Shown here in pieces: positions 14,980-21,480 of a stretch of 21,480 bases of DNA (within the stretch, counting starts at the first letter, position 1; each line of letters opens with the position of its first letter). Made by a program: the position numbers and the translations under genes. The notes below the pieces were generated by a model. That model did no database searches. It was given only the letters and a program-made list of their open reading frames with translations, and was not told the DNA's origin. Origin of the DNA: Deltaproteobacteria bacterium (GTDB lineage: Bacteria; DRYD01); NCBI GenBank assembly GCA_028276365.1, contig JAPYWL010000018.1, positions 1-21,480 of the forward strand. The letters are read 5' to 3'.

Positions 14980-15828
14980 ATGAAAGCCCTTTTTTTTATT
15001 ATTTTTATTTTGTTTTTTTACACTAATATTTTAACTCAGACCTTTTCTAAGGAAATTGAAAGATCTAAAAATAATAAAGAAATATTTTATAAAAACTCAA
15101 TTTTGATTACTGTCTTACCTATTAAATTTGTTTTAAATAATATTTTATCTAAGAATACTCAAGATTACAATATAGAAGTTATTCTTAAAGGTGGAGCTGA
15201 TCATCATAACATAGATTTAAGCCCTAACTTAATTAAAAAAATAAATTCTTTTAATTATATTTTAACTTTTAATTCCCTTGAAATTGAAAAATTACTTTTA
15301 AAAAAAATTGACAAAAATAAGTTAATTGATTTATATAATGATAATTATCTTGAAAATGATCCTCATATCTGGTTGTCTTTAAAAAATCTTAAAAAAATTT
15401 ATTTAAACACTTACAATTTTCTTTATAATATTGATAAAAATAATTACAAGTATTATAGAGATAACTTAAACAAAGTAATTAACAAAATAGAGTTATATAA
15501 CACCTTGTTATTAAACAAAACCAAGAATTATAAAGGTAAATACATCTTAACTTATCATAATGAATATTATTACTTTGCTAAGGATTATAATTTGAATATA
15601 ATTTCTTTACAATATAATGAATCTGAAATTTCTTTAAAAGATATTCAAAAAATAACAAATTTAATTAATCAAGATAAAATTGCTTTTATTTTAACTTCTG
15701 CTTATTATGATAATTCTGTTTTTTTTAAATTAATTAATAAAACTAATAAAAAAATAAAAATAATAGTTTGTGATCCCTTTAATGAAGATACTATAAATAT
15801 CTTCTGGAAAATATATTCAAATATTTAA
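14980..15828 (+). CDS. ZnuA/TroA-family metal-binding protein
   Basis: This 282-aa protein is the periplasmic substrate-binding component of a zinc/manganese-type ABC transporter. A hydrophobic signal segment spans about 3-19. Metal ligands of cluster 9 binding proteins are visible: His75/His76 in GGADHHNIDLSP, His129 in NDPHIWLS, His193 in YILTYHNEYYYFA and Asp265 in CDPFNED. Glu216 lies in the NESEIS element. The length is near the family norm, so it looks complete, although its stop codon forms the TTTAA at the edge of the IS605-derived element. The His-rich loop often found in ZnuA is missing. No permease or ATPase gene is nearby. The next genes mature [NiFe] hydrogenase, so nickel is a conceivable ligand, but that is a guess. 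Confidence 0.85.
   Translation: MKALFFIIFILFFYTNILTQTFSKEIERSKNNKEIFYKNSILITVLPIKFVLNNILSKNTQDYNIEVILKGGADHHNIDLSPNLIKKINSFNYILTFNSLEIEKLLLKKIDKNKLIDLYNDNYLENDPHIWLSLKNLKKIYLNTYNFLYNIDKNNYKYYRDNLNKVINKIELYNTLLLNKTKNYKGKYILTYHNEYYYFAKDYNLNIISLQYNESEISLKDIQKITNLINQDKIAFILTSAYYDNSVFFKLINKTNKKIKIIVCDPFNEDTINIFWKIYSNI
15824..15828 (+). other. TTTAA pentamer at the element's left border (candidate target/TAM)
   Basis: TTTAA lies directly 5' of the left copy of the 17-bp repeat. Some characterised IS200/IS605 elements of Firmicutes insert 3' of TTTAA, and the same pentamer acts as the TnpB target-adjacent motif. Here it also contains the stop codon of the metal-binding protein gene. Confidence 0.4.
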
Positions 15829-15845
15829 TTAACTTTATAGGAATT
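15829..15845 (+). repeat. Left copy of a 17-bp direct repeat flanking the element
   Basis: TTAACTTTATAGGAATT occurs here and again at 16058-16074, with identity ending abruptly after 17 bases. This copy is preceded by TTTAA. Confidence 0.9.
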
Positions 15846-15883
15846 ATCCATTTTCTATAAGGTAGAGATGAGTTGCGAAAAAA

Positions 15884-15912
15884 TTGACAGGTTTCTTGTT
15901 TTGGGCTATAGT
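15884..15912 (+). promoter_or_regulatory. Consensus sigma-70 promoter inside the IS605-derived element
   Basis: TTGACA (15884-15889) and TATAGT (15907-15912) are separated by exactly 17 bases. The -35 is perfect and the -10 differs at one position. Start of transcription is expected near 15918-15920, which would produce an RNA covering the whole right-end scaffold. It is the best promoter in the window. Confidence 0.75.
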
Positions 15913-15918
15913 AATAGA

Positions 15919-16073
15919 TATCAAGGGACCTAAGTCTAGATCGGTTCGAAATCAAGCCTGTAAAGCATGCTTTGGTAAATGACAGTATCGGGATACCTAA
16001 AAAGCTATCATGCTTTCAAGCAGGAAGCTCCACCTTATATAAGGTGGAGTAGTTCACTTAACTTTATAGGAAT
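15919..16073 (+). ncRNA. Candidate omega RNA (TnpB guide RNA) with its guide
   Basis: In IS200/IS605 elements the right end is transcribed as an omega RNA. Its scaffold ends at the element border, and its guide is the first 16 or so bases of flanking DNA. Here the scaffold would run from the promoter's start site to 16057, closing with the strong hairpin at 16028-16049. The guide would be about 16058-16073 (TTAACTTTATAGGAAT). Scaffold motifs match those of other IS605 right ends that I recognise. Because tnpB is absent locally, a functional complex would need a TnpB made from another copy in the genome. Transcription is inferred from the promoter only. Confidence 0.65.
16028..16049 (+). other. 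Perfect palindrome, right-end hairpin of the element
   Basis: CTCCACCTTAT is followed by its exact reverse complement, giving a 9-bp stem with a 4-base loop, or 11+11 in DNA. It is the right-end hairpin recognised by TnpA in this family and the last stem of the omega RNA scaffold. It lacks a following T-run, so it is not a simple terminator. Confidence 0.8.
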
Positions 16074-16074
16074 T
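16058..16074 (+). repeat. Right copy of the 17-bp direct repeat, at the guide position
   Basis: TTAACTTTATAGGAATT begins immediately after the terminal AGTTCAC of the element, exactly where the omega-RNA guide is read. It is identical to 15829-15845. Confidence 0.9.
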
Positions 16075-16090
16075 TATTTAGTAAATCTAT

Positions 16091-16983
16091 AATTATTTAT
16101 CTACTACTTTTGTTAAAGAATTCTCTGAAAAAATTCTATCCCTATAAAGTATGTACAGCATCATAAAGCTCATATTTATTCCTTGATTTTGGATAGAAAT
16201 ATTAAAGAGGATATAATTGGGTTTTCTTTTGATGGTACTGGATATGGTGAGGATGGCAAAATTTGGGGAGCTGAAGTTTTTATTGGTAATATTCATAATC
16301 TAAAAAGAGTTGCTCATTTTAAATATATTCCCATTATAGCAGGGAATAATGCTATAGAAAATCCCGTTTATGTCTCTTTATCTTTTTTATCTAAATATTT
16401 ACCAGAATATATTAATTTATTTGATTTTGTTAGTGATTTTCAAAAGGAGTTAATTTATAAGATGATAAACAGCGATTTCAATGTGTTTTATACTTCATCT
16501 GTAGGTAGATTATTTGATATAGCTGCAGTTCTTAATAAATTAAAGAATATAAAAAATATAGGGGATACTAAGATAACTTTTTCTGGACAACTAGCTATTG
16601 AATTAGAAGTTTTAGCTTCTTCTTCTTTAGAAAAATCTTATTATCCTTTTAAAATTGATATTATAGATGATGTTTTTATTGTTGATACCTTAGATACTTT
16701 TAAAGCTATTTTAAATGAAAAAAATTCAGATATAAATACTATTGCAAAAAAATTTCATAATACAATTTCTAAAATAATACTAAATTTAGCATCGATTTTA
16801 AGAGAAAAGTATAGTATAAATAGTGTAGGGTTTAGTGGTGGAGTTTTCCAAAATAGGATACTACTTAATAATATTTATTATTCACTAATTGAAGAAGGAT
16901 TTAAAGTTTATCTACATAATTCAGTAGCTCCTAATGATAGTGGGATATCTTTGGGACAAGTAGCTGCTTTGATTTATAATTAA
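16091..16983 (+). pseudogene. hypF: HypF carbamoyltransferase, 5'-truncated and frameshifted
   Basis: HypF (about 750 aa) makes the thiocyanate-bound carbamoyl precursor of the CN ligands for [NiFe] hydrogenase. Only the C-terminal Kae1/carbamoyltransferase half is here. From 16091 one frame reads NYLSTTFVKEFSEK, then the frame breaks. One added A in the A6 run at 16128-16133 would join it to NSIPIKYVQHHKAHIYSL, which holds the metal-binding His motif, and onward to DIIGFSFDGTGYGEDGKIWG and the C-terminal GFSGGVFQNRILL. The longest open frame starts at a TTG at 16183, after the His motif. The acylphosphatase, zinc-finger and YrdC domains are absent; the IS605-derived element lies upstream instead. 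hypC follows 53 bases later. A single-base assembly error could explain the frameshift but not the missing half. Confidence 0.85.
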
Positions 16984-20640: not shown

Positions 20641-20760
20641 AAGGAAAGTAAAAAGAAATAAAAAGAGGCTAAAGGAACCAAAAGAAACCAAAGGAAATTA
20701 AATCAAACCAAAAGAAACTAAGAAAAATATGGGAAATCAATTGGAATCAATTGAAATTGA
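20641..20760 (+). repeat. Degenerate leading edge of the decamer array
   Basis: Blocks such as AAAGGAACCA, AAAGAAACCA, AATCAAACCA and AAAGAAACTA recur about every 10 bases. They are one base out of phase with the main array and have scattered substitutions. The copies become regular from about 20741 on. Confidence 0.65.
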
Positions 20761-21480
20761 TTAAAACCAATTAAAACCAATTGAAACCAATTGAAACCAA
20801 TTGAAACCAATAGAAACCAATTGAAACCAATAGAAACCAATAGAAACCAATAGAAACCAATAGAAACCAATTGAAACCAATAGAAACCAATTGAAACCAA
20901 TTGAAACCAATAGAAACCAATAGAAACCAATTGAAACCAATAGAAACCAATAGAAACCAATAGAAACCAATAGAAACCAATAGAAACCAATAGAAACCAA
21001 TTGAAACCAATTGAAACCAATAGAAACCAATTGAAACCAATTGAAACCAATTGAAACCAATTGAAACCAATTGAAACCAATTGAAACCAATTGAAACCAA
21101 TTGAAACCAATTGAAACCAATTGAAACCAATTGAAGCTAATTAAAATCAATTAAAATCAATTGAAACCAATAGAAACCAAATGAAACCAATTGAAGTCAA
21201 AGGAAACCAAAGGAAACCAAAGGAAACCAAAGGAAACCAAAGGAAACCAAAGGAAACCAAAGGAAACCGATTGAAGCTAATTGAAGCTAAAGGAAGCCAA
21301 TTGAAGTCAATTGAAGCGAATTGAAACTAATTGAACCTAATTGAACCCAGTAGAACCCAAATGAACCCAAATGAACCCAAATGAACCCAAATGAACCCAA
21401 ATGAACCCAAATGAACCCAAATGAACCCAAATGAACCCAAATGAACCCAAATGAACCCAAATGAACCCAAATGAACCCAA
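20761..21480 (+). repeat. Tandem array of 72 ten-base units in exact register
   Basis: Every 10 bases from 20761 to the window end starts a new unit, without a single insertion or deletion. The main unit is TTGAAACCAA (21 exact copies), mixed with TAGAAACCAA (16). AGGAAACC-type units (seven) form a block near 21201-21270. An exact run of 12 ATGAACCCAA units spans 21361-21480 and continues past the edge. Units differ mainly in the first three bases and the AAACC/AACCC core. All three minus-strand frames are open and encode the same decapeptide, an effect of the period. There are no unique spacers, so it is not CRISPR. No gene is visible in it. Confidence 0.95.

Follow-up and report, generated by a model that had tools for sequence, protein, structure and literature searches.

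Positions 15838-16057 of the window (the whole stretch of DNA analysed, 21,480 nt) hold a decayed, non-autonomous IS200/IS605 element of the PATE/MITE type, which is now most likely an inert fossil; we put the probability of this reading at roughly 0.78. The element spans 220 bases; its protein genes are gone, and what is left is the left end, a promoter-like site (TTGACA-17-TATAGT) and the right end. The right end comprises the last 43 in-frame codons of tnpB and the omega-RNA scaffold, and tnpA and the remainder of tnpB are missing from the locus, as had been recognised in an earlier note made from the sequence alone. The same note described the locus as an IS605 derivative reduced to its ends, a promoter-like site and an omega-RNA scaffold, a description borne out by the tnpB-derived right end and by the relatives found elsewhere in the genome. 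The parts of the element and its edges are the following.

15829-15845, no strand: left copy of the exact 17-bp direct repeat TTAACTTTATAGGAATT, overlapping the element's left edge
15838-15878, plus strand: left end (LE), homologous to the left ends of the copies on contigs C16, C124 and C83, with a degenerate hairpin (BLAST match to C16, alignment, folds)
15884-15912, plus strand: promoter-like TTGACA-17-TATAGT, with a predicted start at about 15919
15921-16052, plus strand: in-frame tnpB 3' remnant, 43 codons and a TAG stop; the homologous right end overlaps annotated Borreliella TnpB 3' ends
15933-15947, plus strand: damaged omega-RNA stem 1 hairpin with pseudoknot loop, AGTCT-AGATC-GGTTC (family form GGGTT-GGAAC-GACCC), 3/5 pairs, loop mutated
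15962-16016, plus strand: intact omega-RNA inner stem AAAGCATG/CATGCTTT, 15962-15969 pairing with 16009-16016
16028-16049, plus strand: intact right-end hairpin, of the TnpA recognition type and also the last scaffold stem
16052-16057, plus strand: right terminus GTTCAC, whose GUUC forms the 3' side of the pseudoknot; in the ISDra2 omega-RNA the equivalent positions -5 to -3 pair with the stem 1 loop
16058-16074, no strand: right copy of the 17-bp direct repeat TTAACTTTATAGGAATT, its first 16 nt being the would-be guide
16094-16983, plus strand: 5'-truncated hypF remnant, HypF_C_2 only, with a frameshift near 16130 and its edge at most 37 bp from the element's right end

Boundaries and family membership

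Homology places the start of the element near 15838 (BLAST alignment with the copy on C16) and not at 15829, where the earlier note had set it; 15829-15845 is the left half of the 17-bp repeat pair. Of the two subterminal hairpins, the right one is, as had been noticed, a perfect 9-bp stem, CTCCACCTT-ATAT-AAGGTGGAG (16028-16049; DNA fold z = -5.2). The left one, by contrast, had been taken as kept but is degenerate in the window copy (z = -0.84), whereas its homologue in C16 is intact (z = -3.20), so that TnpA should no longer recognise the left hairpin of the window copy.

Sequence comparison assigns the element firmly to the IS200/IS605 family, because its right end aligns with Borreliella tnpB 3' ends and because tnpB-bearing IS605 elements of two other genomes, G002 and G016, have the same right-end RNA. 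Indeed, a blastn search of PLSDB with the C16 copy matched Borreliella plasmids at 73-74% identity over query positions 112-211, several of the matches lying under genes annotated as RNA-guided endonuclease TnpB, and the right-end motifs thus align with IS200/IS605 elements as the earlier note had supposed. The left end is common to the copies of the source genome. Read in frame, 15921-16052 gives SRDLSLDRFEIKPVKHALVNDSIGIPKKLSCFQAGSSTLYKVE followed by a stop, the TAG of which sits in GGAGTAG; the counterpart in C16 is SRDLGLERPEVKPLKHALVDDSIGIPKKLSCFQAGSSTFYKVE, and the tail is in frame in three copies. Coding constraint on this tail was considered and rejected: differences by codon position were 7/1/7, 5/3/2 and 8/4/9, and non-synonymous codons outnumbered synonymous ones. 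Beyond these relatives, the exact right-end pattern was not found in GTDB contigs or IMG/VR, alignment of the tnpB tail against GTDB contigs gave no confirmed relative, Rfam gave no match to the window and five loci, and phage records yielded a single short match to the right hairpin only.

A multi-copy family in the source genome

The source genome (G000) is a MAG of 1.59 Mb in 124 contigs, 87% complete. It contains at least 12 diverged copies or fragments of the element, the window copy included, at different sites and without a transposase gene. Identity to the window element is 79% for C16, 80% for C28 and 77% for C73, further fragments occur on C124, C83 (three), C4, C5 and C60, and divergence of the well-preserved copies is 15-23%. 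The scaffold's covariance model gave 19 raw matches, several of them weak antisense matches on the right hairpin, and added degraded copies on C87, C27 and elsewhere on C16. The flanks differ between copies, which are therefore separate insertions. The same interior is common to four copies (window, C16, C28 and C73) and to pieces of C124 and C5, indicating that the element was already in its reduced form when the family spread or was copied repeatedly.

Comparison of the window copy with C16 reveals a mosaic: the 3' 79 nt differ at one position, the 5' 67 nt at 20. Such a pattern points to gene conversion or to selection confined to the right end; the near-identity of the 3' portion could reflect constraint, and gene conversion explains it equally well. 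The C5 copy occupies the same site in G001, within a block of about 90% overall identity. The coding flanks in this block are for the most part 95-99% identical; the scaffold of the copy is plainly more diverged than they are, and the stretch over its promoter is well conserved. The block, which measures about 2.5 kb and surrounds one MITE copy (L015, G000:C5, and L076, G001:C44), is shared by two species whose HypF and ZnuA proteins are only 58-62% identical, which suggests recent exchange or strong conservation. A minimal element, L007 (G000:C4:4428-4462), has its left terminus fused to the right hairpin (TTGTAAGAAGTCTCCACCTTCTATAAGGTGGAGTAGTTTAC), and the fusion looks as if it had come from recombination between the two hairpins.

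The omega-RNA scaffold of the family and its damage in the window copy

The whole RNA of the element folds better than its shuffles (z = -4.1). Alignment of the right ends of G000, G002 and G016 revealed a five-pair hairpin with the loop GGAAC and a conserved 3' terminus, GUUCAC. In the ISDra2 structure, omega-RNA nucleotides -5 to -3 pair with -103 to -105 within the stem 1 hairpin, forming a pseudoknot (PMC10097598). A pseudoknot of this type is possible in the family between the loop GAAC and the terminal GUUC, and a second G002 type has GACC with GGUC, a compensatory change. Across nine sequences, stem 1 and the pseudoknot pair in 94% of cells and four pairs change on both sides. Their covariation score in the same nine sequences was 0.373 against 0.163 (sd 0.038) for shuffled alignments, none of 500 of which reached it, and at most 0.120 when slid; since the arms were picked visually in a MAFFT alignment, and since relatedness of the sequences can lift a score above shuffles, this is good, not independent, proof. 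In position, too, the scaffold agrees with an omega-RNA, overlapping the tnpB 3' end and the right end. The right end of the family is very probably a genuine omega-RNA scaffold, with the stem 1 and pseudoknot known from published structures, both backed by this covariation.

The window copy is damaged in the left hairpin, the 5' helix arm, stem 1 and the pseudoknot. Its stem 1 keeps three of five pairs, as does that of C73, and its loop is mutated; the pseudoknot, with three of four pairs left, is broken in this copy alone among 13 scaffolds. C16 contains a nine-base stretch, GTCCCGATA, that C28 and C73 carry with substitutions; the window copy lacks it, and the 5' arm of a possible long-range helix is therefore removed. 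That helix, GTCCCGATA/TATCGGGAT, is paired in C16, in C28 (with wobble) and, except for two pairs, in C73, with one double change. Its covariation did not exceed that of shuffles, three sequences being too few, and covariation did not support a local 5' stem, GTCCC/GGGAC.

The promoter-like site and related cassettes in other genomes

The TTGACA-17-TATAGT site pointed out in the earlier note is present at 15884-15912 and scores 11/12, the best of 16 matches in 1.3 kb, where 10.3 matches at 9/12 or better are expected by chance. Its near-consensus form had been read as a sign that the RNA itself is being kept, a reading that gained no support. In six copies, the -35 hexamer is off consensus in 7 of 36 cells (19%), the -10 hexamer in 5 of 36 (14%) and the 17-nt spacer in 18 of 102 (18%); the hexamers are thus no better conserved than the spacer between them, and promoter constraint was discarded. 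The spacing of 17 in all six copies is as common descent predicts. In several copies of the source genome the -10 lies about 8 nt ahead of the scaffold region. Since an IS605 relative in G002 carries a TTGACA/TATACT promoter ahead of tnpA-like sequence, the site may simply have been inherited from the left end. Retention of an RNA from the window copy is not supported.

G002, from the same family of bacteria as the source, holds this relative as an element with an intact tnpB (a 387-codon open frame) preceded by the tnpA-like sequence. In the G002 units on C19 and C10, the left end is followed by TTGAAA-16-TATAAT, by another TATAAT further along and by the scaffold, an arrangement that would place the transcription start at the 5' edge of the scaffold; on C12 (46662) there is no promoter stretch and the left end joins the scaffold directly. 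In G016, a distant complete genome, three near-identical 300-bp MITEs have left ends 92-97% and right ends 87-95% identical to those of the tnpB elements of the same genome, with a TATAAT after the left end, then about 115 structured nt, then the scaffold. Pieces of the insert of about 115 nt in these MITEs (L009, L010 and L012) also occur elsewhere in G016. The layout of promoter and omega-RNA thus recurs without being universal. Units of this kind are found in some relatives as well, and it is therefore probable that the ancestor was a mobile omega-RNA cassette relying on TnpA and TnpB supplied in trans. A further G002 locus, L049 (C18), has a left end fused to the C-terminal half of tnpB in a 235-aa open frame, and is a possible intermediate in a reduction series.

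Search for partner proteins and a model for the element

Of the two things for which the earlier note would have had the genome searched, related right ends were found, in the copies described above, but tnpB genes were not: in the 87%-complete source genome neither TnpB nor TnpA was detected with Pfam PF01385, PF07282 and PF01797 or with a complete G002 TnpB as query. The same TnpB query found none in G001 and recovered G002's own TnpB, as a positive control. A PF07282 match in C124 (E = 0.0016) is a 95-aa ORF and was rejected as TnpB; similar weak short-ORF matches occur in G001 and G004. The absence of tnpA and tnpB from the MAG is suggestive only, because mobile elements assemble badly in MAGs and, with 87% completeness and 124 contigs, a tnpB could be missing. 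As no cognate TnpB was found in the cell (genome 87% complete), the window copy is filed as the remnant of an omega-RNA locus rather than as a working omega-RNA.

The observations can be accommodated as follows. An internal deletion in an IS605 element would have brought its left end and promoter directly up to the 3' end of tnpB and the right end, giving rise to an omega-RNA cassette. While TnpA and TnpB were both present, TnpA in trans could have moved this cassette by peel-and-paste, and its own promoter could have made an omega-RNA with a 16-nt guide copied from the right flank. TnpB in trans could then have recut the vacated donor site and restored the copy, as in the published donor-joint model, where TnpB recuts the vacated site and the copy is restored (PMC8612924). 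Because the guide is insertion-specific, a MITE would be protectable only by its own RNA. Mobility and guide use would both lie in the past, and the window copy would now be a relic, possibly transcribed, with no known partner; it is most likely inert because TnpA and TnpB were not detected and because of the damage it has suffered. Against decay, it should be said that three of the four pseudoknot pairs survive and that the near-consensus promoter is still present.

It is possible, if doubtful, that the IS605-derived MITEs of the source lineage and G016 are more than by-products, namely selected guide-RNA cassettes made of a left end, a promoter starting at or before the scaffold, and a right end. 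Each would make an insertion-specific omega-RNA and borrow TnpA and TnpB in trans, being moved and protected as a parasite of the transposon's retention system, and the window copy would be a late, decaying member.

Surroundings of the element and alternative explanations

The exact 17-bp direct repeat TTAACTTTATAGGAATT at 15829-15845 and 16058-16074 has no other exact copy in the genome, and its right copy lies directly outside the element's right end. IS605 transposition makes no target duplication (PMC8612924), and the C16 and G016 MITEs have no flanking direct repeat, whereas the window copy has this exact one. For these reasons the repeat is probably of other cause, such as local duplication, recombination or assembly error. 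Upstream, znuA has its natural end at 15828, and the same C-terminus ends the protein in G001. Downstream, hypF is truncated to an open frame of 284 aa, against 589-674 aa in relatives from the family; its homology starts at 16094, within 37 bp of the element's right end, and is frameshifted near 16130. The N-terminal 385 residues of HypF were not found in the MAG. Full-length ORFs resembling hypC, hypD and hypE follow the truncated hypF, and in G001 znuA and hypF are on different contigs.

The alternative that survives best, although unlikely, is that the element is only a mark at the DNA level, a site of rearrangement between copies, with the 17-bp repeats and the truncated hypF recording a recombination or deletion; this would be compatible with the fossil reading. 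The break in hypF so close to the right end, with its missing N-terminal part, the mosaic similarity to C16 and the exact repeats at both edges all point in this direction. However, no donor copy with matching flanks was found, and an assembly error is possible.

The predicted guide, the first 16 nt to the right of the element, matches the element's own left edge perfectly, where cleavage by an active TnpB would be conceivable, provided that the bases ahead of the match act as TAM. It has no exact genomic match beyond the flanking repeat, and matches with two mismatches or fewer are as many as for the control; a guide aimed at another genomic site was therefore rejected. This result bears on the proposal that the locus yields a functioning stand-alone omega-RNA for a TnpB whose gene lies elsewhere (on a missing contig, a plasmid or a co-resident element), an RNA that keeps the insertion in place or targets a matching site. 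The 11/12 promoter, the intact right hairpin and inner stem, the right end nearly identical to that of C16 and the G016 precedent of scaffold-bearing MITEs beside cognate TnpB elements would fit such an RNA. Nevertheless, we regard it as quite improbable: G000 yielded no TnpB, stem 1, the pseudoknot and the 5' helix are damaged only or mostly in the window copy, the promoter is not conserved above its spacer, and the only exact match of the guide outside its own position is on the element's left edge. A domesticated regulator or decoy, with the RNA or the right-end DNA recruited for a host function at the znuA-hypF locus, is very improbable indeed, for although the element sits directly downstream of znuA and ahead of a hyp operon remnant at which its promoter-like site points, no partner protein is conserved, the locus itself is not conserved in G001, the scaffold has decayed and the adjacent hypF is truncated. 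The roles suggested in the earlier note (guide for a TnpB in trans, guide decoy or domesticated regulator) thus have no known partner, the three Pfam models and the full TnpB query being negative in a genome that is 87% complete.

Comparison with known systems

The PATEs of Haloquadratum walsbyi are described (PMC3119063) as short, transposase-free, multi-copy and heterogeneous elements with near-terminal palindromes, IS605-type kin and no target duplication, for which an origin by core deletion has been proposed. The family studied here is likewise transposase-free, IS605-related and multi-copy. It differs in that its right end carries an omega-RNA scaffold, whereas no RNA role is known to have been considered for the PATEs, and the window copy, unlike the PATEs as described, has a promoter-like site and a 17-bp flanking repeat. 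A PATE-like element of Halanaerobium hydrogeniformans retains 28 nt of the left end and, tnpA being absent, the final 58 nt of tnpB together with the complete right end (PMC7290912), and so resembles the window element in joining a left end to a tnpB 3' tail and right end without tnpA. That element, however, is single-copy in a genome with many IS605 elements, whereas here the left part has kept a promoter-like site and searches of the genome revealed neither TnpA nor TnpB. With the ISDra2 omega-RNA/reRNA (PMC8612924, PMC10097598) the family shares an RNA formed by the tnpB 3' end and right end, a guide from the right flank and a stem 1 pseudoknot with the 3' terminus; the ISDra2 RNA normally comes from a tnpB-carrying element, while in the window there is no tnpB and the promoter directly precedes the scaffold.

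The window copy itself represents ordinary decay, and the family is of slightly wider interest. Elements of the ends-only IS605 type have been described as transposase-free repeats; in this family, what remains of the right end is an omega-RNA whose pairs covary, and in some cases a promoter lies at its 5' edge. No paper on omega-RNA-bearing MITEs was found in the literature searched, the coverage of which was incomplete, so the idea may already be known. If such cassettes are expressed beside a cognate TnpB, as could be the case in G002 and G016, they would represent self-retaining MITEs of natural origin, guided in trans, and would supply TnpB with extra guides.

Elsewhere in the window, 20733-21480 is a tandem array of the 10-bp unit GAAACCAATT (about 75 copies, 91% matches), which reaches the contig end and is open in several minus-strand frames.
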